64,000 nt of DNA from Nitrosarchaeum sp. (GTDB lineage: Archaea > Thermoproteota > Nitrososphaeria > Nitrososphaerales > Nitrosopumilaceae). The stretch is from NCBI GenBank assembly GCA_025699025.1, contig JAILWJ010000001.1:62001-126000 (forward strand), given 5' to 3'. This document shows positions 46,407 to 62,266 of this stretch, one piece after another (within the stretch, counting starts at the first letter, position 1; the number at the start of each line of letters is the position of its first letter). A model generated the notes under the pieces. The model was not told the origin of the DNA, ran no database searches, and worked only from the letters and a program-made list of their open reading frames with translations. Made by a program: the position numbers and the translations under genes.

Positions 46407-46749
46407 CTTATTTGATACGTTAATGACTTTATAAAAATCTCATAATTGCTCAGGAATGCTTTTTAACTACTTGAGCCTACTTTGTACATCGAGTTTTCTG
46501 CGGATACAACTCTTTGAGCGTGCGGTTGTAAAGCCTCACCTCTTAGAGCATTTTCATGATTTCTTGGTATGTATTGTTTGCGTTAATTCTTTTTGTATAT
46601 TTTACATTTCCTTAATCTGACAGATGTCAAAGAAATGTACAATTTATCCATGCTTTGATTATTTTTTTATAGTTTTGATGTGTTGATTATCGCTAATTTG
46701 CACTGGAACTTTTCTTCCAAATTGTTATTAATTTGATGTCTGCACTTTT
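46407..46749. other. Noncoding interval between divergent genes
   Basis: About 340 bp with no convincing reading frame. The left part (46441-46560) is richer in GC than the rest and has an ACAAC/GTTGT arm pair around 46507-46530. The right part is AT-rich and holds the promoter of the regulator at 46756 (TATTAAT at about 46727-46733). A small RNA in the left part is possible but not demonstrable by eye. Confidence 0.35.
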
Positions 46750-46758
46750 TGCGGTATG
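46748..46758 (-). promoter_or_regulatory. Inverted copy of the S-layer-locus element, overlapping a start codon
   Basis: Read on the minus strand the sequence is a GACATACCGCA-like 11-mer (plus strand TGCGGTATGTC from 46750), sharing CATACCGCA with the three plus-strand copies at 49957, 50938 and 56146. It covers the ATG of the regulator gene, where binding would be expected to repress rather than activate. The first base differs (A for G), and the TATA-side sequence of the other copies is not conserved here. Confidence 0.5.
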
Positions 46759-47601
46759 TCTAATAATGGGACTTTTGGAAATTTACAATCATATAGAAAT
46801 TACACTCAGCCAACAGTCAAACGTCTATTTGGAGATATTTCCTCGAAAAAAAACAACAAATCAAAACATGGTGAAAACATCAAACAACTGCTTTTGTCTT
46901 TGGCATCCAATGGGTTCTTGACCACCTGGGAAATCGCAAAATTAGATTATTCAGACACCTCGTCAATTCGAACAAGAGAAAAGCAAATAAGAAGACTGCT
47001 GGTTGGTAGAAAAGACAGGGGTAAAAAATCTCCCGGAGTCTTGGATGTTGGACTGATTGTCAGCAAAAAAATGAAAGCAAGTCAAAGCATTTCAAATTCT
47101 TATGGTCTGTCATTGCATGGGGTATTGTATTGTCTTGATGTTTTAGATTTTAGCAAAAAAGATGTTGATCAAATGGCATACCGTTATTCCAAATCCCTTC
47201 CAATGGTATTTGGTAGGTGGGATTACCTAAAATCCATACTTGGTGATGACGTATACAGAATCAAAATTCTTGCAAGTGGGCTGCTTTTGGATAACATTCA
47301 CATTACTGGAATTTCACAAATACCAATTTTTGAACTAGTCACATATCTTAATGTGAAATATCGGGATAATTACGAAAGCATCACTGAAACTGCGTTAGCG
47401 GATCAAATCTCTTATTGGTTTTATACTGCTCTTCTCATTCCCTCCACATTAAACAAACAAAAAGAGCATTCTGAATTGGAAAAATGGAAGAAAATTTTTG
47501 TAAATGATCAAAAGTTGAAAAAATGGTATTTTGATTTCATTAATGATGCATACAGGTTTTATTCATGCAGATTTGATGTCATTAAAACTCTAGAGCCCTA
47601 A
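46756..47601 (+). CDS. Putative winged-helix regulator, paralogue A
   Basis: A 281-residue protein without a family name I recognise. Residues about 33-100 look like a DNA-binding fold: FLTTWEIAKLDYSDTSSI then QIRRLLVGRKDRGKKSPGVLD. A conserved LSLHGVLYCLDVLD and a C-terminal ADQISYWFYT follow. It aligns along its whole length with the protein at 50012 (FGNxQxxRN at the start, SPGVLDxGL, YESIxExxxADxxSYWF). The pair encloses a two-component system. The stop overlaps the convergent response regulator in a CTAA. Confidence 0.72.
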   Translation: MSNNGTFGNLQSYRNYTQPTVKRLFGDISSKKNNKSKHGENIKQLLLSLASNGFLTTWEIAKLDYSDTSSIRTREKQIRRLLVGRKDRGKKSPGVLDVGLIVSKKMKASQSISNSYGLSLHGVLYCLDVLDFSKKDVDQMAYRYSKSLPMVFGRWDYLKSILGDDVYRIKILASGLLLDNIHITGISQIPIFELVTYLNVKYRDNYESITETALADQISYWFYTALLIPSTLNKQKEHSELEKWKKIFVNDQKLKKWYFDFINDAYRFYSCRFDVIKTLEP

Positions 47602-47972
47602 GACTGTGTGTATTTTTTTATTATGTTTTCAATTTCTTCAAAATCGTATGGTTTACTGATCATTTCTAAAAGCCCCATGCTTTTTGCCTTTAGCAGTTTT
47701 TTTTCATCCACAGCATATGCTGAAATCAAAATTATTTTTGCGTCCTCTTTGATTTTTTTCATTTTAAAGAATGCATCAAATCCGTCCATTTTCGGCATTT
47801 TGATGTCCATGATCGTTATGTCGGGCACTGATTCCCTAAATTTGATTACTGCCTCTTCTCCGTTTGTGGCTGTAACCGTTTCATAGCCTATGTTCTTTAA
47901 CATGAATGTATTTAGTCCTAGCAAATCTGTATCGTCATCAACAAATAAAATCACTGTCATTCTAATTTGCAC
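47598..47972 (-). CDS. Response regulator, receiver domain only
   Basis: A 124-residue CheY-like receiver. Acidic pocket DDD at 12-14, phospho-acceptor Asp56 in TIMDIKMPKMDGF, Thr/Ser switch in IILISAY and the conserved lysine in MISKPYDF near residue 107. No output domain is attached, so it must act through protein contacts. It follows the sensor kinase gene by 32 bp on the same strand, so the kinase is its likely partner. The start may be the internal ATG (residue 5). Confidence 0.9.
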   Translation of the reverse strand: MQIRMTVILFVDDDTDLLGLNTFMLKNIGYETVTATNGEEAVIKFRESVPDITIMDIKMPKMDGFDAFFKMKKIKEDAKIILISAYAVDEKKLLKAKSMGLLEMISKPYDFEEIENIIKKYTQS

Positions 47973-48004
47973 CTCTTAATTCAAATTCAAAGATTGTATT
48001 ACTT

Positions 48005-49855
48005 TCATTTCTGTGGAATTTTGATGATGAATCTTGTTGGATTGATTTGTACATCTATTGACCATCCGTGCTGCTCAATTATATTCTTACATATTGACAA
48101 ACCTAAACCTGTTCCTTTCATCTTTGTTGTAAATAGCGGCGTAAAAATTTTTTTCATATTTTCCTCCGCAATACCTTCTCCGTCATCTTGAATTTCTATT
48201 ATGTCATGAATATGGTTTTTTGAAGTTGAAATTATAATGTTGCCTGCCTTGTCCCCTATAGCTTGAATTGCATTTAGAATCAAGTTGATAAAGACAATTT
48301 CTATTTTTTCCTTGTCACAAGAAACCGTTATGTCTTCTTTTGGAATTTCTATTTTTATATTCTCTGGAATTTTTATTAATTCTATTGAAGATTTTATTAT
48401 GCTTAACATTGAATTATCTTTTACATTTATTGGTGTAATTCTTACATAGTTCAAAACATCTTCAATCTGATGGGCCATTCGTCTTATTGCCCTCTCCATT
48501 CTTGGGAACACTTCTTTTTGTATTTCCGGAGTTGTTCCTTCCGAATTTCTTTTTATGGCATCTATTCCTGTTTTAATTACTGATAAAGGATTCTTCAAGT
48601 CATGAGCCAAACTTGATGATAGCTCTCCTATCGCCAATAAGCGTTCATTTTTTGCCCTTGTTTGGGTCTCAGCTAATTCTTTTTCAGTTTCAATTAATTG
48701 TTTTATGGACACAGATGCCTTCTTAAATGAATTTAAGATTACCTGAAACTCTGCAAATCTGCTTGGTTTTATGGTGTAGTTGAAATCTCCTTTTGAGAGA
48801 TGTGTTGCAACATTTGTTATATCTTCCAACGATTTTGAAATAAAATATGTTATGAACAACCCTATTACTATTACCATTCCGACACCTACAATTGTAATTA
48901 TAACTAACTCGTTTCGTACATTTGAAATGTCTTCTAAAATTGATGACTCGTCTTGCTCTATTATGATGTGCCATCCAAATCCTGGAAAGTCTAAAAATCC
49001 TGTCGATGTTGCAAATGTCACAAATTTTGTTTTTTCTCCTACAGTATTCTCAAATGATCCTATGATTCCATTTACTGCTTCAAATTCATTATATTTTTCA
49101 TAAAACAAATCGTTTCTTTTACTTGAATAAACTATGTTCCCAATTTCATCTATTATGTATACTGTCTTTTTTTCGTTAGATAAGATTTTACTATCTGCTT
49201 TTAAATCATTAAGAATATCCGCTAAATTCAACGATATTCTTAAAACTCCTAGAAAATTACCTGCACTATCATTAATTCGTAATCCTATTGGAATTGTATG
49301 TGTTTTGTAATTGTCATTATACGATGGTTTGCCTATGAATAAACCCTCTCTCTTTGTAATTTGCCACCAGTTTTCATCATCTTGACGAAGATCTGAAATT
49401 CCTATTCCTAATGCAATGTTTTCACCATGTTGATTTGTAATAAAAATTTCATCAATAACGCTGTGTTCATAAACGTTTTTGTAGAATTCTATTATGTCTT
49501 TTAATTCATTTGTTAGTTGATTGTCTTCAACATGTGCGAGTATTTCTAATTGGGTTTCTTGATTGATATTGCTATTTGAATTATTATTTTGCCCCATTCT
49601 TTTTTGAAATAATTCGTTGGATTTCTGAATTGCATTTTGCACTTCCATTGAATATGTAATTTGTTTAAAATCATCAATTCTCTTTTTTATAAATCGATCA
49701 AAATCATGCATTAGCGTTGACGCAATTGTAACGTTTCTTTCTATTGCTGTTTTTTTCATTTCATTAATGTTGATTTCTAAAATTATGAATGATGTTACAG
49801 TATAGATTACCAGAAGTATTGCTAATCCAATTATTATGATATGTGATATTTTCAA
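48005..49855 (-). CDS. Membrane sensor histidine kinase with extracellular Cache-like domain
   Basis: 616 residues. TM1 at 5-26, an extracytoplasmic double-Cache-like sensor (about 35-315; ENWWQITKREGLFIGKPSY is a Cache signature), TM2 at 317-339, HAMP 340-390, dimerisation and phospho-accepting domain with His418 in SLAHDLKNPLS, and an ATPase domain with the N box (ILNAIQAIGDK), G1 (DDGEGIAEEN) and G2 (GTGLGLSICKN). It senses an outside ligand and signals to the receiver at 47598. The start is TTG. Confidence 0.9.
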   Translation of the reverse strand: MKISHIIIIGLAILLVIYTVTSFIILEININEMKKTAIERNVTIASTLMHDFDRFIKKRIDDFKQITYSMEVQNAIQKSNELFQKRMGQNNNSNSNINQETQLEILAHVEDNQLTNELKDIIEFYKNVYEHSVIDEIFITNQHGENIALGIGISDLRQDDENWWQITKREGLFIGKPSYNDNYKTHTIPIGLRINDSAGNFLGVLRISLNLADILNDLKADSKILSNEKKTVYIIDEIGNIVYSSKRNDLFYEKYNEFEAVNGIIGSFENTVGEKTKFVTFATSTGFLDFPGFGWHIIIEQDESSILEDISNVRNELVIITIVGVGMVIVIGLFITYFISKSLEDITNVATHLSKGDFNYTIKPSRFAEFQVILNSFKKASVSIKQLIETEKELAETQTRAKNERLLAIGELSSSLAHDLKNPLSVIKTGIDAIKRNSEGTTPEIQKEVFPRMERAIRRMAHQIEDVLNYVRITPINVKDNSMLSIIKSSIELIKIPENIKIEIPKEDITVSCDKEKIEIVFINLILNAIQAIGDKAGNIIISTSKNHIHDIIEIQDDGEGIAEENMKKIFTPLFTTKMKGTGLGLSICKNIIEQHGWSIDVQINPTRFIIKIPQK

Positions 49856-49956
49856 TTTTGATGTTCAGTTTGAATTATTATGGTATTTTAAGTTGATTTC
49901 TCATTGTATGTCAAATACACTTGTTATTTCTTTCATGGGTCATCTCATTTTTTATT

Positions 49957-49991
49957 GGCATACCGCAATATGGTATCTATTTTGATATAAT
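49957..49991 (+). promoter_or_regulatory. Shared S-layer-locus promoter element upstream of regulator B
   Basis: GGCATACCGCA (49957-49967), 9 nt, then CTATTTTGATATAAT (49977-49991), which contains the TATA box. The TTG start at 50012 is about 24 nt from the TATA centre. The layout is identical, base for base in spacing, to those at 50938 and 56146. Confidence 0.7.
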
Positions 49992-50011
49992 TAATTTCTA
50001 AATATCCTTAT

Positions 50012-50866
50012 TTGACTATATTATTTGGTAACATCCAGGCATTTCGTAACCTTGTGCTTCCCGTATCTGAAGAGTTATTTGGCTCTAGATCCTCCCCATC
50101 TATTTCTAAACATAAGCAGTATGTACAAGAAATGCTAAAACTGCTATCTCTTCATGGTTCGATGACCACTTGGGATCTTGCAAAAAATTCTATTATTTTG
50201 GATCTTGATTCTATGAGATCCAGAGATAAGGTGTTTCGAAGGTTACTTCTTGGCAGAACTGATAGAGGCAAATCCAGTCCCGGTGTTTTAGATATTGGTC
50301 TAGTTACGTCTACTAACTCAGTTTCAATACCATCAAATAAGTATCGATTATCTGCACATGGCCTGCTTTATTGTCTTGCCATTCTTGATTTATCCAATGA
50401 CGAAATTGACCGAATTGTCTCTAATTATTCTGATATATTCCCTAAAATTTTTGGCAAATGGAATTTGATAAATTCCTATTTCAAAAATAGCATTGATCTT
50501 TTGAAAGAAATTGGTAATACTCATGTGTATGAAAATCGCCATCTTGTCAAATTTTCCGATTTCCCATTTGTAGAAATAAATGGCTACATACATACAAAAT
50601 ATGTTGATTTTTATGAATCTATTTCTGAATCTGACTTTGCAGACGAAGTCTCGTATTGGTTTTTTACAAATCTTCCTATTACATATCTTTTGTCTGGAAA
50701 AAACACAAATAAATTATTAGAAAATTGGACATGTCTATTTGAAGAAGATCCTGATTTGAAACACTGGTACTATTCATTTCTTTTAGAAATGAAAAATTTT
50801 TATCTTGTGAGATTTGCCAGATTGGATCATCAATTGTCTTTGGATGATAATTTGATTGAGGGATAA
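50012..50866 (+). CDS. Putative winged-helix regulator, paralogue B
   Basis: 284 residues, paralogous to the protein at 46756 over the full length. Shared landmarks: FGNIQAFRN at the N-terminus, SMTTWDLAKN and a basic RRLLLGRTDRGKSSPGVLD (about 50-95) that together look like a winged helix, SAHGLLYCLAILDL near 120, and ADEVSYWFFT near 213. No ligand domain can be named. It lies 131 bp upstream of the S-layer gene, and both carry the same promoter element. The TTG start is supported by the leaderless spacing. Confidence 0.72.
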   Translation: MTILFGNIQAFRNLVLPVSEELFGSRSSPSISKHKQYVQEMLKLLSLHGSMTTWDLAKNSIILDLDSMRSRDKVFRRLLLGRTDRGKSSPGVLDIGLVTSTNSVSIPSNKYRLSAHGLLYCLAILDLSNDEIDRIVSNYSDIFPKIFGKWNLINSYFKNSIDLLKEIGNTHVYENRHLVKFSDFPFVEINGYIHTKYVDFYESISESDFADEVSYWFFTNLPITYLLSGKNTNKLLENWTCLFEEDPDLKHWYYSFLLEMKNFYLVRFARLDHQLSLDDNLIEG

Positions 50867-50937: not shown

Positions 50938-50972
50938 GGCATACCGCAAATCAAAAGTTATTTGCATATAAC
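50938..50972 (+). promoter_or_regulatory. Shared S-layer-locus promoter element upstream of the S-layer gene
   Basis: GGCATACCGCA (50938-50948), 9 nt, then TTATTTGCATATAAC (50958-50972). The TATA centre is about 29 nt from the ATG at 50998, so the message has a leader of only a few bases. The element sits upstream of the TATA/BRE region, where archaeal activators usually bind. Confidence 0.72.
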
Positions 50973-50997: not shown

Positions 50998-53900
50998 ATG
51001 TATAACGAATTAGGACGTAAAATAACTAGTCTTACATTAATGACAATTATGTTAGCCGGTGGTATGACATTTGCAGTACCTGGCGTAATGCCAGCTGCAC
51101 ATGCAGCCAACGCTAACCTATTTGTTTCCGCAGAAAACTCGCAGTTTGATAACTACATGTCAGGACCTCAAGTAATTGAGGTCGTTGTAATTGATTCAGA
51201 CATTAATGATACTGATGAGGCAAAAGGTGAACCAGACGTTACAGTAAACGGCAAGAAACTCAGAATGGTTCAAGCCGTGGATGGTAACTGGTATGGTTAC
51301 TTTGCAGATAGAAACATGGCACAAATTGCCGATTCTACAGTAGGTACAAAGGCTGGAGAAGGCTTAGACTTTGGTGTCTTTTGTGCTGCTAGTACTGGTA
51401 CAACTGTCTTGGGCTTCAGTACAACTGAAACCTCTGGCTTTGCAGTTCCAGCACTAGTAACATCTGGTGTCAACGGCTCAAGCACAGGAGGCGTAATTAG
51501 TGCCTCATGTTCTGCAGCTGGCACTGGTACCACAAACGGTACTAACAATGTTGTTAGAGAACCAAAGGATGTCAATACAAACAGTGCAATCTCTAAAGGT
51601 CAAATCGGCCTTTTGAACACTGATGTATGGCCATTTGTACAGCTCTATACTCTAAACCCAACTGGCAACGTCGTCGTCCAGTACAACAAAGGTGGTGGTG
51701 CTCAAACAACAACACTAACCTTTGATACTGTTGACAACTTTGCAAGCATGAGCTTAGACAGAGCAATATATCCTCAAGGTGCACAAGTGCATGTTACCAT
51801 ATCTGATTTATGGCTCAACATCGACCCAACTGACGAAGACTCTTGGACCTTTGGTACAAGTGGAACAATTTCTACTCACTACCAAGTGTTTGATGAGAAC
51901 GGCGCAGCAGTCGGTGATACTGCCACAAACATCAGAACTGGAAGCACATCACTTACCGGAAAACTCAGCAACTTAATGTGTGAAGATAATTGTGTATTAA
52001 AGCTCAACCCCGACGTTCAAGGTAAGGGAAAAGTCATTACCCTACAGGATAACGATGACTCCGCCATTAAAGTCGGATCGGGTGAAGACGAACAGAATCC
52101 AAGCAATTGGCAAACTGATGCTGGATTCCTTGACGGCAAACTACCAATTACAATTACAGAACAGGGTCCAAACAGCGGAGTATTTGGCACATATGATGAG
52201 TCAGATACTTCCAACATTGTAATCACTGATGATGCAAAGAGGGGAACCTCTGCATCAATCGATTACAATAAAACCCCTAGAACCCTTCTTGTAGGACATT
52301 CCTTTGCTACTATTGACATCCAGCCAACTGATAATGAGTGGAACTCTGGTGAAGAGATTCCAGTAGTATTAGTTGATGCAGATGCCAACAAGAACAGTAG
52401 AGCAGACGAAGACCTTGACCTTAACAATCCAAACGTAACATTGATCCCATCCTTACAGACTGGTGATCCATTTACACTTGGCGAGGCAGGTCTGACCACA
52501 GCTAAAGCTACTTTCTTCAATAATGCCACTTCTCAAGTCATTGTCCGAAATGGAACAATGGTAAACGCTGGAGCAACCTCTAACTATAACAACTCTACAA
52601 TGGAAGTTCAGAGATTCAGCCAGAGAGCATTACTTGACACAAGCAGCACTACTACTGAAGTAAACGGAATTGCATTTGACTATAGATCCAACGCAGGCGA
52701 CTTGAAAGATACCGTATTGGCCAAAAATGTCCTTAGAGGATTTAGCCTCTTTAACTTAGATGTTAGAAGCCTAAACATGACTGGACCATTTGATGTTTAC
52801 TTGCTAAACAAAACTGGTACCACCAACATCATTGGCGCTAACGGTACCTTGACACCAACAACCTATGCATATAGATTGTTAAATGATGTCAACGCACAAT
52901 CACTGACACTGCTATCCAACAGTACAATTGACTATATCAACAGCCTAGATGACGATGATAAAATCGGTCTAGCTGTTATAGCAACAACTGGTGGTAGACC
53001 AAACAGTGAGGATGCAGTCGTTGCTGACTTCTTCTCCTTTGGATTCACACAAGATGGACTGGAAGCCGATCAAAGAATCGCTAACCAGATCATCAGACTG
53101 GAACTAGAGGAGACTGGTGATAACACAAGCACCTTTACAGGTTCCTTGGAGTACACCATGATTAATCAGCTAAACATACTTGATAATAGCACATACGCTA
53201 ACCTAAGAACAATTGCCGATGATCCAACTTTCATCGTAATTGAAGACCTAGATGATGAAGACTCTCCAAGAGTCAATTATCTGGACTTGGGTGCAGACGG
53301 TGTGTCTACTCAAGTATCTGATCAAGCAGCAGCTCCAGCACACTCTGGCGTTGTTTCATTCAATACACGTAGCTACAAGATTGCTGACACAGTTACAATT
53401 ACACTCGAAGACGCAGATCTAAACGTAGACTCTGATCTCATTGATATCTATACAGTCACTGGTGGTGATGTCGCCGATCTTAAAGATGTCGTTGGCAGCG
53501 ATGACTTCGACTTTGAACTTTCTGATGGCTCAAACCTCGGTAGATTACTAGATGTCAAATTTGATAATGTTGTATGGAGAACACCTTCCTCTGGTTCATG
53601 CCTCACAGAATTGAACAATGCAGGTGTAACAGACACTGGACTAGGAGCAACAGGCTTTAGCCTTATTGAAACCGGCCCAGAGACTGGCATCTTTATTGGC
53701 GACTTCCAAATTCCCTCTAAATGGTGTAGATCCGCTACTGCTTCATCTGAATCGGTAACCGGTCTAGACATTGAAGTCAAATATGTTGATTTCAGAGATG
53801 CATCTGGTGAGACCATCGAAGTAGGAGATAAAGCAGGAGTTCGCGCTAACACAGGTTCAGTAAGCCTTGATAGAACTGTCTATCCAGTACCATTTGGTGT

Positions 53901-56067
53901 TCCAGATAACTTCAGTGGAAACACTGCAACTACACCAAGGGTCGGATCAGTTGATCGTTCAGTATTCCCAATACACCAATCCGGTATGGATTCAACCTCC
54001 GGATTGCAATCTGGTGAATTCTTGAACAAGGCAGGACTTATGATCCACGTTAGAGTAAACGATCCAGACTTTGACATATCCGCAAGTGGTGAAGATAGCA
54101 TTGCCGAAAACACATCAGACGGAGTAGGTCCAGTGAAGATCTCTGTTCTCAGAGGCTCTTCAGTAGTCGTACTCGGTTATGCAGGTGGTAACGCAACAAA
54201 AGCAGGTGTTATTGACGTCGGTGACGACAATAGTTCCAAATCTGCTAACATCAGACAATTTGGCCCAATGGTCGAAGTTGCACCCGATGCAGGAATATTC
54301 GAAGCCGACATCTTAATCAGATACACAGACGGTCCAGCAAGCACTAATTGCCCAGATACTAAATCTGATGGCTTTAATGCCATCAATGGTACAACTGGCC
54401 TAAGTAGTGTTACTAGCCGATTTGACACTGCCGCATCATCAGGCAATTACTGTATCTTACAAGGAGATATTCTCCAAGTAGAATACACTGATCCAGCCGA
54501 TGCATCAGGTAATCCAAATACTGTGACTGACTCTGCTACATTTGATCTTAGAAACGGTGTATTGCAATCCGACAAATCAGTTTACATTATTGGATCCGAT
54601 ATGATCTTGACCCTCATTGAGCCAGACTTTGATCTGGACAGTGACCAGGCTGAGACATATTCATTGGACTTGATCGAATGGGACTCTGACGCTGCCACCC
54701 TCTCAATGGGTACTAAAGGCGGCTCAGATGGAGCATTTGACCCAGAACCACTAAACTTTAGAGAAACAGGTGACTCTACTGGTATCTTCCAGATTGTCGT
54801 CGAGATTCCTCAAGAGCTAGATGGTGACAAGCTAGAAAGAGGAGAAGAAATTGTCCTCGAGTATACCGACTGGGGTCCATCTGGATCTGACTATGTAGGT
54901 GATGAAGATGAAGATGTCAACTTGACAATCTACACTTCAAACTTCGGAGCAACTGTAGAGCTTGACCAAAAAGTTTACACTTGGACTGACAAAGTATACA
55001 TTACTATCGTCGCACCAGACCACAACTTTGACAGCAACCTAGTTGATGATATAGGCAACACTGATGATGACCCAATAAGGATCTCAACCAGAAATGCCAA
55101 ACTTACCAACTACAAGCTAGTCGAGACTGGCACTGACACTGGCATCTTTACTGGTGAGGTAATTCTTACCGGATTTACACACGATGCAGACGGTGACAGC
55201 AGAACTGGTAACAACGGTAACGATGTAACTACACGAGATCCTTCAGGTAACGGTCCAACTGATGGACTGTTGTCAGCTAGAGATGATGACGGACTGACTG
55301 TCTCCTTTGAATTCTCAGAGGATGAGACAGTTGTAGGTTCTGCACTAATCAGATGGAATATCGGTGAAGTCCAGTGGCTTGAAGCAAGCTATTCTGCGAA
55401 AGGTACAGGTGTTGTAAGAGTAATTGATCCAGATATGAACTTGAATCCAGAAGCAGTCGACAACTTCAGAGTCGACGTGTGGTCTGACTCCGATGCAGGA
55501 GGTATCAGCCTCACTGTAACTGAGACTAATGAGGCAACCGGAATATTCGAAGGAACAGTGTTCTTCACTGTAACTGATCAATCATCTGGTCACAGACTCA
55601 GAGTCGCAGAAGGTGACACTGTCACTGCAGAATATGAGGACAATACATTGCCAAAACCATACACAACTGCAGACGAACTTGATATCACTGCCACCACGCT
55701 AATCGGTACAATTGTGCCACCTCTCGAGAGAGCACCAGCTTCCAACTTGAGAACTGTTGATGCCTTTGGTAACAGTCTAAACACTGTTAACGTAGACCAA
55801 CAGGTACAGATTACAGCCGACTTAGTCAATGGCCAAGATAGAGAGCAACGATTTGCATACTTGGTACAGGTCCAGGATGGCAACGGTGTTACCATCTCAC
55901 TGGCATGGATTACCGGTTCACTATCACCAGGTCAATCATTCAGCCCAGCATTGTCATGGATCCCAACACAAGCAGGTAGCTACACAGCAACCGCATTTGT
56001 CTGGGAATCAGTTGACAATCCAACGGCATTATCACCACCAGTAACCACAACAATTACTGTAAGATAA
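50998..56067 (+). CDS. S-layer protein
   Basis: A 1689-residue secreted protein that forms the outer lattice. Signal peptide at 1-36 (LTLMTIMLAGGMTFAVPGV; cleavage after AHA). The mature chain is acidic and composed of many Ig-like beta domains, each closing with an ETGxxTGIFxG-type strand pair (at least seven: for example ETGPETGIFIGD, ETGDSTGIFQIV, ETGTDTGIFTGE, ETNEATGIFEGT). No C-terminal membrane helix is present. It ends in an Ig-like domain. An upstream TTG in frame at 50932 is rejected because the promoter lies within it. Confidence 0.9.
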   Translation: MYNELGRKITSLTLMTIMLAGGMTFAVPGVMPAAHAANANLFVSAENSQFDNYMSGPQVIEVVVIDSDINDTDEAKGEPDVTVNGKKLRMVQAVDGNWYGYFADRNMAQIADSTVGTKAGEGLDFGVFCAASTGTTVLGFSTTETSGFAVPALVTSGVNGSSTGGVISASCSAAGTGTTNGTNNVVREPKDVNTNSAISKGQIGLLNTDVWPFVQLYTLNPTGNVVVQYNKGGGAQTTTLTFDTVDNFASMSLDRAIYPQGAQVHVTISDLWLNIDPTDEDSWTFGTSGTISTHYQVFDENGAAVGDTATNIRTGSTSLTGKLSNLMCEDNCVLKLNPDVQGKGKVITLQDNDDSAIKVGSGEDEQNPSNWQTDAGFLDGKLPITITEQGPNSGVFGTYDESDTSNIVITDDAKRGTSASIDYNKTPRTLLVGHSFATIDIQPTDNEWNSGEEIPVVLVDADANKNSRADEDLDLNNPNVTLIPSLQTGDPFTLGEAGLTTAKATFFNNATSQVIVRNGTMVNAGATSNYNNSTMEVQRFSQRALLDTSSTTTEVNGIAFDYRSNAGDLKDTVLAKNVLRGFSLFNLDVRSLNMTGPFDVYLLNKTGTTNIIGANGTLTPTTYAYRLLNDVNAQSLTLLSNSTIDYINSLDDDDKIGLAVIATTGGRPNSEDAVVADFFSFGFTQDGLEADQRIANQIIRLELEETGDNTSTFTGSLEYTMINQLNILDNSTYANLRTIADDPTFIVIEDLDDEDSPRVNYLDLGADGVSTQVSDQAAAPAHSGVVSFNTRSYKIADTVTITLEDADLNVDSDLIDIYTVTGGDVADLKDVVGSDDFDFELSDGSNLGRLLDVKFDNVVWRTPSSGSCLTELNNAGVTDTGLGATGFSLIETGPETGIFIGDFQIPSKWCRSATASSESVTGLDIEVKYVDFRDASGETIEVGDKAGVRANTGSVSLDRTVYPVPFGVPDNFSGNTATTPRVGSVDRSVFPIHQSGMDSTSGLQSGEFLNKAGLMIHVRVNDPDFDISASGEDSIAENTSDGVGPVKISVLRGSSVVVLGYAGGNATKAGVIDVGDDNSSKSANIRQFGPMVEVAPDAGIFEADILIRYTDGPASTNCPDTKSDGFNAINGTTGLSSVTSRFDTAASSGNYCILQGDILQVEYTDPADASGNPNTVTDSATFDLRNGVLQSDKSVYIIGSDMILTLIEPDFDLDSDQAETYSLDLIEWDSDAATLSMGTKGGSDGAFDPEPLNFRETGDSTGIFQIVVEIPQELDGDKLERGEEIVLEYTDWGPSGSDYVGDEDEDVNLTIYTSNFGATVELDQKVYTWTDKVYITIVAPDHNFDSNLVDDIGNTDDDPIRISTRNAKLTNYKLVETGTDTGIFTGEVILTGFTHDADGDSRTGNNGNDVTTRDPSGNGPTDGLLSARDDDGLTVSFEFSEDETVVGSALIRWNIGEVQWLEASYSAKGTGVVRVIDPDMNLNPEAVDNFRVDVWSDSDAGGISLTVTETNEATGIFEGTVFFTVTDQSSGHRLRVAEGDTVTAEYEDNTLPKPYTTADELDITATTLIGTIVPPLERAPASNLRTVDAFGNSLNTVNVDQQVQITADLVNGQDREQRFAYLVQVQDGNGVTISLAWITGSLSPGQSFSPALSWIPTQAGSYTATAFVWESVDNPTALSPPVTTTITVR

Positions 56068-56145: not shown

Positions 56146-56180
56146 GGCATACCGCATCTTGTGCGTTATTCTGAAATAAC
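56146..56180 (+). promoter_or_regulatory. Shared S-layer-locus promoter element upstream of the hairpin RNA
   Basis: GGCATACCGCA (56146-56156), 9 nt, then TTATTCTGAAATAAC (56166-56180). With the spacing of the other two copies, transcription would begin at about 56200, the first bases of the hairpin arm at 56199. No protein start codon sits at the expected place. Confidence 0.65.
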
Positions 56181-56278: not shown

Positions 56279-56332
56279 ACCACGCCGCATTTTGAAAATT
56301 ATTTTAAAATAATTTGAAATGTTTTGTTTGTT

Positions 56333-56749
56333 ATGTTAGTTTCCAAAAGAAATCTGTTTGTATCAACTAAAACTATAATTCTTTGCATATCTCTGTCATC
56401 CGTAGCTGTATTACTCTTGTATTCATATTATGTTGACAATAATCCCTTCACGCCAGATCCAATTGAGATTCTCACAGACAAGTCTGAATACAATGTTAAT
56501 GACTTTGTTGTGTTGTCTGTCAAAAATACTGTTGATCAGAGTAGCATGTTGATAGTGCAAACTCCTTCTGGTGAGGTATATTCAAAACATCTAGTCTCGT
56601 ATCCAAATAATATAGTGCCTAACCAATTCAAGCTTGAGGGACACTTTTTTTCAGAATGTGATTGTACTGCCAAAGGAATTTGGTCAATAAAACACGTGGA
56701 TTATTCAGGCGAAGAATTATCCACTGTACAATTTCTAGTCATTGATTGA
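56333..56749 (+). CDS. Exported or membrane-anchored Ig-like protein
   Basis: About 138 residues from the ATG at 56333 (a TTG 9 bp upstream is also in frame). A membrane helix (about residues 13-33; IILCISLSSVAVLLLYSYYV) precedes a beta-sandwich-like domain (ILTDKSEYNVNDFVVLSV, and VQTPSGEVYSKHL) of the type found as stalk domains in surface proteins. One cysteine pair (ECDCT) lies near the end. No family name. It lies downstream of the S-layer locus and the hairpin RNA. Confidence 0.65.
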   Translation: MLVSKRNLFVSTKTIILCISLSSVAVLLLYSYYVDNNPFTPDPIEILTDKSEYNVNDFVVLSVKNTVDQSSMLIVQTPSGEVYSKHLVSYPNNIVPNQFKLEGHFFSECDCTAKGIWSIKHVDYSGEELSTVQFLVID

Positions 56750-61222: not shown

Positions 61223-62266
61223 ATGAATTTCTCTTATGGTGTTATTGCAGCAGTTGGGTTTTTGGTTGCAATTTCGCTTGTTTTGATTTCGATATCACCT
61301 GATGATATTATAAAACCAAGAGCAGTTCCTGAAGATTTGCCAGAGATACCAGTTGAAGAGCCAGTTGTATGTACTATGGAGTATGCCCCAGTTTGTGGTG
61401 TAGATGGAGTCACTTATGGAAATATGTGCATGCTAAATGCGGCTAAGGTGAGTCTGGATTATATCGGTGAATGCATTGTGGCACAACCGGAACCTGAACC
61501 AATTCCAGAGCCTGAATCTGTTCCACCATCTACAATGCCTGATCTTCCGCAAACTCACACAGTTGTAGTTGCTGAAGGTTCTGGGACTCCAGGATGTGAG
61601 ATGACAAATGAGTGTTATCTGCCATACTCTCTTGAAGTTCGGGTTGGTGATACTGTGATGTGGAATAATGTAGACACTGCCGCACATACTGTTACCAGTG
61701 GAACTCTAACTGATGGTCTTGATGGTGTGTTTGATTCTGGTCTGTTTATGTCTGGAAATACCTTTGAATTTACTTTTGATGTATCGGGAACATATCCTTA
61801 TTTCTGCATGGTTCATCCTTGGATGATTGGGGAAATTATTGCAAGTGATATTGAAGAAGTTTCTGTTATGGAGCCAGTTGTGGAACCTGAATTGATATCT
61901 GAACCAGAACCTGTTGCCGAACCTGAACTGATTTCAGAATCCACGGTTGAGTCTCAATCTTTGCCAATGAGTGTCTCTGTTTCAATGCCTGCGGGCTCTT
62001 CTGTTCCTGGATGTGAGGAGACAAACTCTTGTTATATTCCATATAGAGCAAAAATTACTGTGGGTGGTACTGTTACCTGGAGTAATGATGATACTGCCGC
62101 ACATACTGTTACAAGCGGGAAACTACCTGAAGGACCCTCCGGAGTATTTGACTCTGGACTATTCATGGCAGGAACCACATATTCACACACTTTTGATAAA
62201 TCTGGAAACTATCCATACTATTGTATCGTGCATCCTTGGATGAGCGGTCTTGTTACTGTTGAATAG
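61223..62266 (+). CDS. Membrane-anchored Kazal plus double-cupredoxin protein
   Basis: 347 residues outside the membrane. An N-terminal anchor (about 5-28) precedes a Kazal-type inhibitor domain at about 49-85 ([16 protein letters not shown] with the expected cysteines). After a Pro/Glu linker come two plastocyanin-like domains (about 115-212 and 258-347), each with a type 1 copper set: His in AAHTVTSG, Cys in FCMVHPW or YCIVHPW, then His and Met (HPWM). Electron transfer is likely from the copper sites. The role of the inhibitor domain is unknown. Confidence 0.88.

Follow-up and report, generated by a model that had tools for sequence, protein, structure and literature searches.

A conserved promoter element in Nitrosarchaeum and its relatives accompanies a kinase, a receiver and a predicted winged-helix regulator and precedes a second S-layer gene

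By what route archaeal two-component systems act on the genome is an open question. Most thaumarchaeal response regulators have no DNA-binding domain and no informative neighbourhood, according to PMC5847659. A locus of Nitrosarchaeum sp. poses the question in concrete form. In the window (the whole 64,000-nucleotide stretch analysed here, positions 62,001 to 126,000 of contig JAILWJ010000001.1), two similar proteins flank a membrane histidine kinase and a receiver-only response regulator, and an S-layer gene lies alongside. An earlier note on this DNA read the arrangement as a complete signalling unit and knew of no description of it. Nor did we find a published account of the combination: a search of largely openly accessible literature, which included the presumed locus tags beside Nmar_1201, turned up no description of the element or the module discussed below. 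Does the receiver have a DNA-binding partner, what DNA might that partner recognize, and which genes would respond?

The two flanking proteins, regulator A (46756..47601, plus strand, 281 residues) and regulator B (50012..50866, plus strand), are paralogues over their full length, as had been proposed: they align over 269 residues with 41% identity (E 1e-71), and the motifs SPGVLDxGL and ADxxSYWF occur in both. Two further paralogues lie on contig C3 of the same genome. The identity of the two minus-strand genes between A and B is borne out by Pfam matches, transmembrane segments and catalytic boxes. The response regulator (47598..47972, with a possible start at ATG 47957) has 124 residues and consists of a receiver only (PF00072, E 1e-22), with no fused DNA-binding output domain; it keeps the acidic box, the phospho-acceptor aspartate and the lysine of the SKP motif. 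The kinase (48005..49855) runs from a transmembrane segment through a dCache-like extracellular sensor to a second transmembrane segment, HAMP, HisKA and HATPase_c. Its HisKA and HATPase_c domains are matched by Pfam, those of dCache_1 and HAMP weakly. About 290 extracellular residues lie between the transmembrane segments, and the H, N and G boxes are present (residues 416, 524, 557 and 581).

What kind of proteins are A and B? Neither matches a Pfam or NCBIfam model, and by Pfam neither is a receiver or a DUF1724 protein. Pfam scans of 33 family members gave no curated match, whether to the MarR, ArsR and PadR family models or to PF18549, PF18550, PF11537 and PF18551, the Pfam models for the NitrOD and TackOD1 output domains of Thaumarchaeota (NitrOD3 and NitrOD4 have no Pfam model), and a search of PDB sequences with the 33-member profile returned chance matches only (best E 0.047). 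The AlphaFold2 models (pLDDT 86 for A and 91 for B) contain a winged helix at about residues 35-120 of A and 20-130 of B, followed by about 150 helical residues. With VIA-align both paralogues score Z values of about 9-10, and their best matches are MarR/ArsR/PadR-type proteins; the model of B superimposes on 3vod_A with Z 10.1 and rmsd 1.7 over 76 residues. Foldseek alone ranked the matches of B without significance (best E 0.019, to MukBEF), and re-ranking with VIA put winged-helix regulators on top. Both paralogues are predicted, then, to hold a MarR/ArsR-like winged helix, the fold that the earlier note had suggested looking for.

B as a single query found no match in the genome contigs. 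A profile search of the contigs yielded 56 named loci with the regulator family, which is present in 26 of the 121 relatives searched. The record titles of these loci are all Nitrososphaerota/Thaumarchaeota, mostly Nitrosopumilus, Nitrosarchaeum, Nitrosotenuis and Cenarchaeum; two are labelled Nitrososphaeraceae MAGs. Among the genomes searched, this unnamed family is confined to Nitrosopumilales and close kin.

The regulator seldom stands alone. At 44 of the 56 loci a receiver gene is convergent with it less than 900 bp away, and at three more the two gene ends overlap by a few bases. Six loci, all of one clade (L146, L147, L151, L154, L156 and L160), have the receiver on the regulator's strand, and a few (L131, L142) have no detectable receiver. 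The kinase is convergent with the regulator at 50 of the 56. Across loci the catalytic half of the kinase is kept while the sensor varies (dCache_1, Cache_3-Cache_2 or none recognized), which suggests that different signals are sensed. By gene order, regulator, receiver-only response regulator and histidine kinase make up a module conserved across Nitrosopumilales. The signalling unit of the earlier note survives in this form, its neighbourhood being kept in relatives; the flanking pair of paralogues, by contrast, is special to the present locus. Phosphate would pass from kinase to receiver, and gene order suggests a contact between receiver and regulator. B has no kinase or receiver of its own, and its end branch on the family tree measures 1.88. 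It would seem to be an additional, rapidly evolving copy and one of the targets in its own right.

On which DNA might such a regulator act? The 1.7-Mb genome contains three exact copies of GGCATACCGCA, all in the window on the plus strand (at 49957, 50938 and 56146). As the earlier note had recognized, the first two place B and the S-layer gene behind the same promoter element. At B the element (49957..49967) is followed by the TATA box GATATAAT (49984..49991, plus strand), which comes 27 bp after the element begins, the distance seen in the class I logo, and by the TTG start codon at 55 bp. At the S-layer gene (50998..56067, plus strand, 1689 residues) the element (50938..50948) precedes the TATA box CATATAAC (50965..50972, plus strand) by the same 27 bp and the ATG by 60 bp. 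This layout, which we call class I, recurs in relatives as element, 16 bp, TATA, with TATA 27 bp from the element start and the target start codon at 54-55 bp, or at 60-61 bp for S-layer genes. Of 108 nonredundant sites, 48 have an ATG at exactly 54 or 55 bp; at other distances the count is 2.35 per position.

A second geometry, class II, is found on the regulators themselves. Here the reversed element, TGYGGYATGCC, lies on the regulator's own start codon, with TATA at -31 to -24. Regulator A carries such a copy, one mismatch away from GGCATACCGCA and a candidate site of autorepression (46750..46760, plus strand; TGCGGTATGTC, or GACATACCGCA on the minus strand); its TATA box TTATTAAT (46725..46732, plus strand) has the start codon 24-31 bp downstream and fits the family promoter logo. 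Leaving the start codon aside, 34 of 52 regulators match the element at 7 or all of the remaining 8 positions, compared with 1 of 548 other ORFs of the same loci; about a third of the family has no clear class II site. Fourteen of these 34 sites have a divergent start codon 54-55 bp away on the opposite strand, and the two directions then appear to share one TATA box. In one clade (L132, L134-L136, L139, L140 and L143) the start-codon element is extended to the palindrome-like ATACCGTAnTACGGTAT, and in the B promoter GGCATACCGCA and the following ATATGGTAT together form ATACC-N7-GGTAT. The two arrangements suggest a dimeric binder.

Is the element tied to the regulator? The pattern GGCATRCCRCA-N42-45-ATG, used to count class I promoters, has 70 matches in 23 genomes that bear the family and 3 in 20 that lack it. 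A backward control pattern has 8 matches among the family-bearing genomes, every one of them from a single genome, and 2 among the genomes that lack the family. Class I sites also cluster near regulator genes. To judge from these counts and spacings, GGCATACCGCA is a conserved promoter element at a fixed distance from TATA and start codon, and the presence of class I elements depends on that of the regulator. Two other readings of the strings were discarded. The elements do not behave as inversion sites for S-layer phase variation: their distances to the promoter are fixed, and A and B resemble DNA-binding regulators, not recombinases. Nor do we take the CGM(P) string before the regulators for a protein motif: in several loci stops come directly before it, a TATA box stands at 25 bp, and promoters of other genes contain the same element with the same wobble.

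Variation within the element points the same way. Base 9 of the regulator's own site agrees with that of the other sites of its locus in 51 of 51 comparisons, where shuffling gives a mean of 26. Within the genome studied here, base 9 is G throughout the window locus and A throughout the C3 locus. Residue 87 of the regulator directly follows the recognition helix; it is Asp where the elements are G-type (30 of 30) and Ala or Ser where they are A-type (7 of 7); B, with a G-type element, has kept the Asp. The pairing fits the chemistry of a direct contact. The A-type regulators form one clade, however, so the covariation amounts to a single event on the tree, and we have downgraded residue 87 as independent proof of base recognition. 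We infer from the sites as a whole that the regulator contacts DNA at the element.

One candidate target is the S-layer gene of the window. A mechanical start at TTG 50932 was rejected in favour of ATG 50998 because relatives begin M(Y/N)NE(L/I)GRKITSL and because the element would otherwise fall inside the ORF. The protein has full-length homology of the NmSLP type: across some 1650 residues it is 70% identical to the Nitrosopumilus maritimus protein solved as 8c8k. It is also 91% identical to a second full S-layer gene of the same genome (G000:C2:343683). That C2 copy, like most S-layer genes of relatives, has a canonical palindromic GTGGACAAWTYGTCCATTA shortly before TATA. A general S-layer regulator might bind at this element, which precedes nearly all ordinary S-layer genes of Nitrosopumilales; loci with it (L192, L165, L168-L171, L174-L178 and L193-L195) include genomes without the module. 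Upstream of the window copy GTGGACAAWTYGTCCATTA is absent and GGCATACCGCA stands in its place at -60, while the S-layer leader CAATAAC before the ATG is retained.

Two other genomes repeat the pattern. In G025 one S-layer copy has a degenerate AGCACGCCACA at -61 and the second gene a canonical promoter. In G047 the copy beside the module has GACATGCCGCA at -60; the other has the canonical promoter, and its protein matches PDB 8c8k from end to end (residues 1-1734). The G047 twins differ around residues 911-977, as PMC11153153 describes for Nmar_1547 and Nmar_1201. On the strength of the match and of this difference we take G047 to be N. maritimus SCM1 and its element-bearing copy to be Nmar_1201, a gene reported in PMC12448741 to be upregulated in N. 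maritimus biofilm. S-layer copies are 91-92% identical within a genome and 70% between genomes, which implies independent duplications or gene conversion. In the promoters compared, an element-bearing S-layer gene is found in three genera only and is always the second copy. The earlier note, which had made the S-layer gene the target of the unit, is supported for these genera; elsewhere the element precedes other, mostly small or exported proteins. As a general target the S-layer had to be given up: S-layer-like sequence is within reach at 7 of the 56 loci only, and most of it is fragments.

Class I sites precede, for the most part, small zinc-ribbon-like proteins, proteins of 40-60 residues and exported proteins, with no family matches. 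One recurring operon, divergent from the kinase, encodes a small zinc-ribbon-like protein (about 90-110 residues) and then an exported protein of about 150 residues with a repeated C..SDtEk...C..GAVmKAK pattern and no family match (L041 12770, L043 12803, L046 7204, L058 12683 and L119 13161). Acidic proteins of 50-60 residues ending in GLSW(I/V)F-EDD or similar each lie directly behind a class I promoter (L041 9557 on the minus strand, L060 10385, L116 5435 and 8807, L117 1366 and L121 15735). At L151, L156 and L160 the opposite strand encodes a ribbon-helix-helix-like protein of 49 residues, with its start at a distance of 58 bp from the start-codon element. In the window, the third exact element (56146..56156, plus strand) has AAATAACA at TATA distance and, at the right distance for a start, only a 16-codon ORF (ATG 56204) and no protein of normal size; this could mean a short peptide, a non-coding RNA or a remnant. 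A degenerate element, ACCACGCCGCA (56279..56289, plus strand), lies 54 bp before ATG 56333 and is suggestive only. Its distance is the basis for listing as a possible further target the gene at 56333..56749 (plus strand), which encodes 138 residues with a single N-terminal hydrophobic segment.

How might these parts work together? We consider it likely that they form a three-component module in which kinase signals to receiver and receiver to regulator, the regulator activating class I genes, the second S-layer gene among them, and repressing itself at class II sites. The kinase would detect something extracellular and phosphorylate the receiver-only response regulator. Since the receiver has no DNA-binding domain, it would act through the winged-helix regulator A, possibly also B, encoded alongside. 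The regulator would bind GGCATACCRCA. At class I sites it would sit just upstream of TATA/BRE and activate genes whose start codon lies 54-61 bp beyond the beginning of the element; at class II sites it would cover its own transcription start and start codon and shut itself off. The genes activated would in general encode small or secreted proteins, with an alternative S-layer in three genera, and at this locus would be B and the second S-layer gene. With its promoter swapped for class I, that gene would let the surface coat be added to or exchanged when the sensor fires. B has a class I element of its own upstream; it is probably one of the targets and would act on the same sites in a feed-forward or feedback manner. 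Both the sign of regulation and the signal are presumptive here.

The sign could be otherwise. Many MarR/ArsR-fold winged-helix proteins are repressors, and class II sites, which cover the transcription start, are placed as for a repressor. The regulator might repress at class I and class II sites alike, in which case the module would derepress surface genes. But class I sites leave TATA and start free and keep a fixed spacing of about 16 bp upstream of TATA, where archaeal activators usually sit, and we think repression throughout unlikely, if not strikingly so. It is improbable, too, that A and B are independent of the kinase and receiver, which would adjoin them by history and feed another pathway. 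In favour of such independence, genes placed tail to tail do not share a transcript, B comes without its own receiver, and a few loci (L131, L142) have no detectable receiver; but independence fits poorly with an association across many genera and with a clade of rearranged order that still keeps the three genes together.

A further possibility is that another factor, an alternative transcription factor B (TFB) or an unrelated regulator, binds the element, the module being merely one target. The element lies near the BRE/TATA region, and in PMC12448741 N. maritimus biofilm genes correlate with a TFB switch (Nmar_0013). Such a switch could account for the induction of Nmar_1201 without the module, or act as a co-factor for the S-layer part. 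As an account of the element itself we find it distinctly improbable: class I promoters are nearly confined to regulator-bearing genomes, the sites cluster by regulator genes and cover the regulators' own start codons, and inside one genome the element varies in step with the local regulator. The three-component module is the reading we prefer. More tentatively, it may represent a new archaeal class, with kinase, receiver-only response regulator and separate winged-helix regulator of an unnamed family, a promoter that works in both directions from a single TATA box, and recruitment, apparently independent in several genera, to switch S-layer identity. Where element and TATA are shared with a divergent target, binding would then redirect transcription from regulator to target. 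We hold this broader proposal as a serious possibility rather than an expectation.

With a conserved partner for the receiver, an element in the DNA and specific candidate targets, the locus makes the question of how such receivers reach the genome testable in a cultured species. It also offers a candidate regulator for the alternative S-layer of ammonia-oxidizing archaea; the coat of these cells may, as PMC11153153 proposes, concentrate ammonium.

How does the module compare with known systems? The FilI/FilR1/FilR2 system of Methanosaeta harundinacea likewise joins an archaeal kinase, a receiver-only response regulator and a winged-helix transcriptional controller. FilR1, however, has its own receiver and a DUF1724 domain, whereas the predicted DNA-binding protein here has no receiver, belongs to another family and is encoded by a gene convergent with its partners (PMC5847659 for the Fil system). 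The same paper contains a census in which receiver-only proteins make up about 75% of thaumarchaeal response regulators, most of them with no conserved neighbourhood and with functions that could not be inferred. The receiver in the window is one of these proteins; unlike most of them, the subset described here has a conserved neighbourhood, a predicted DNA-binding partner and a promoter element. With classical two-component systems the locus shares the kinase H, N and G boxes but not the fusion of receiver and DNA-binding domain. With MarR/ArsR/PadR-type regulators, among which autoregulation is common, A and B share the predicted fold of residues about 20-130; they differ in having no sequence-family match and in the additional domain at their C-terminus, which is helical and about 150 residues long. 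The Nmar_1547/Nmar_1201 pair of N. maritimus shows the same arrangement of S-layer genes, one copy with a canonical promoter and the other beside the module with the element. The available portions of PMC11153153 and PMC12448741 report both proteins and the induction of Nmar_1201 in biofilm, and mention neither element nor module.
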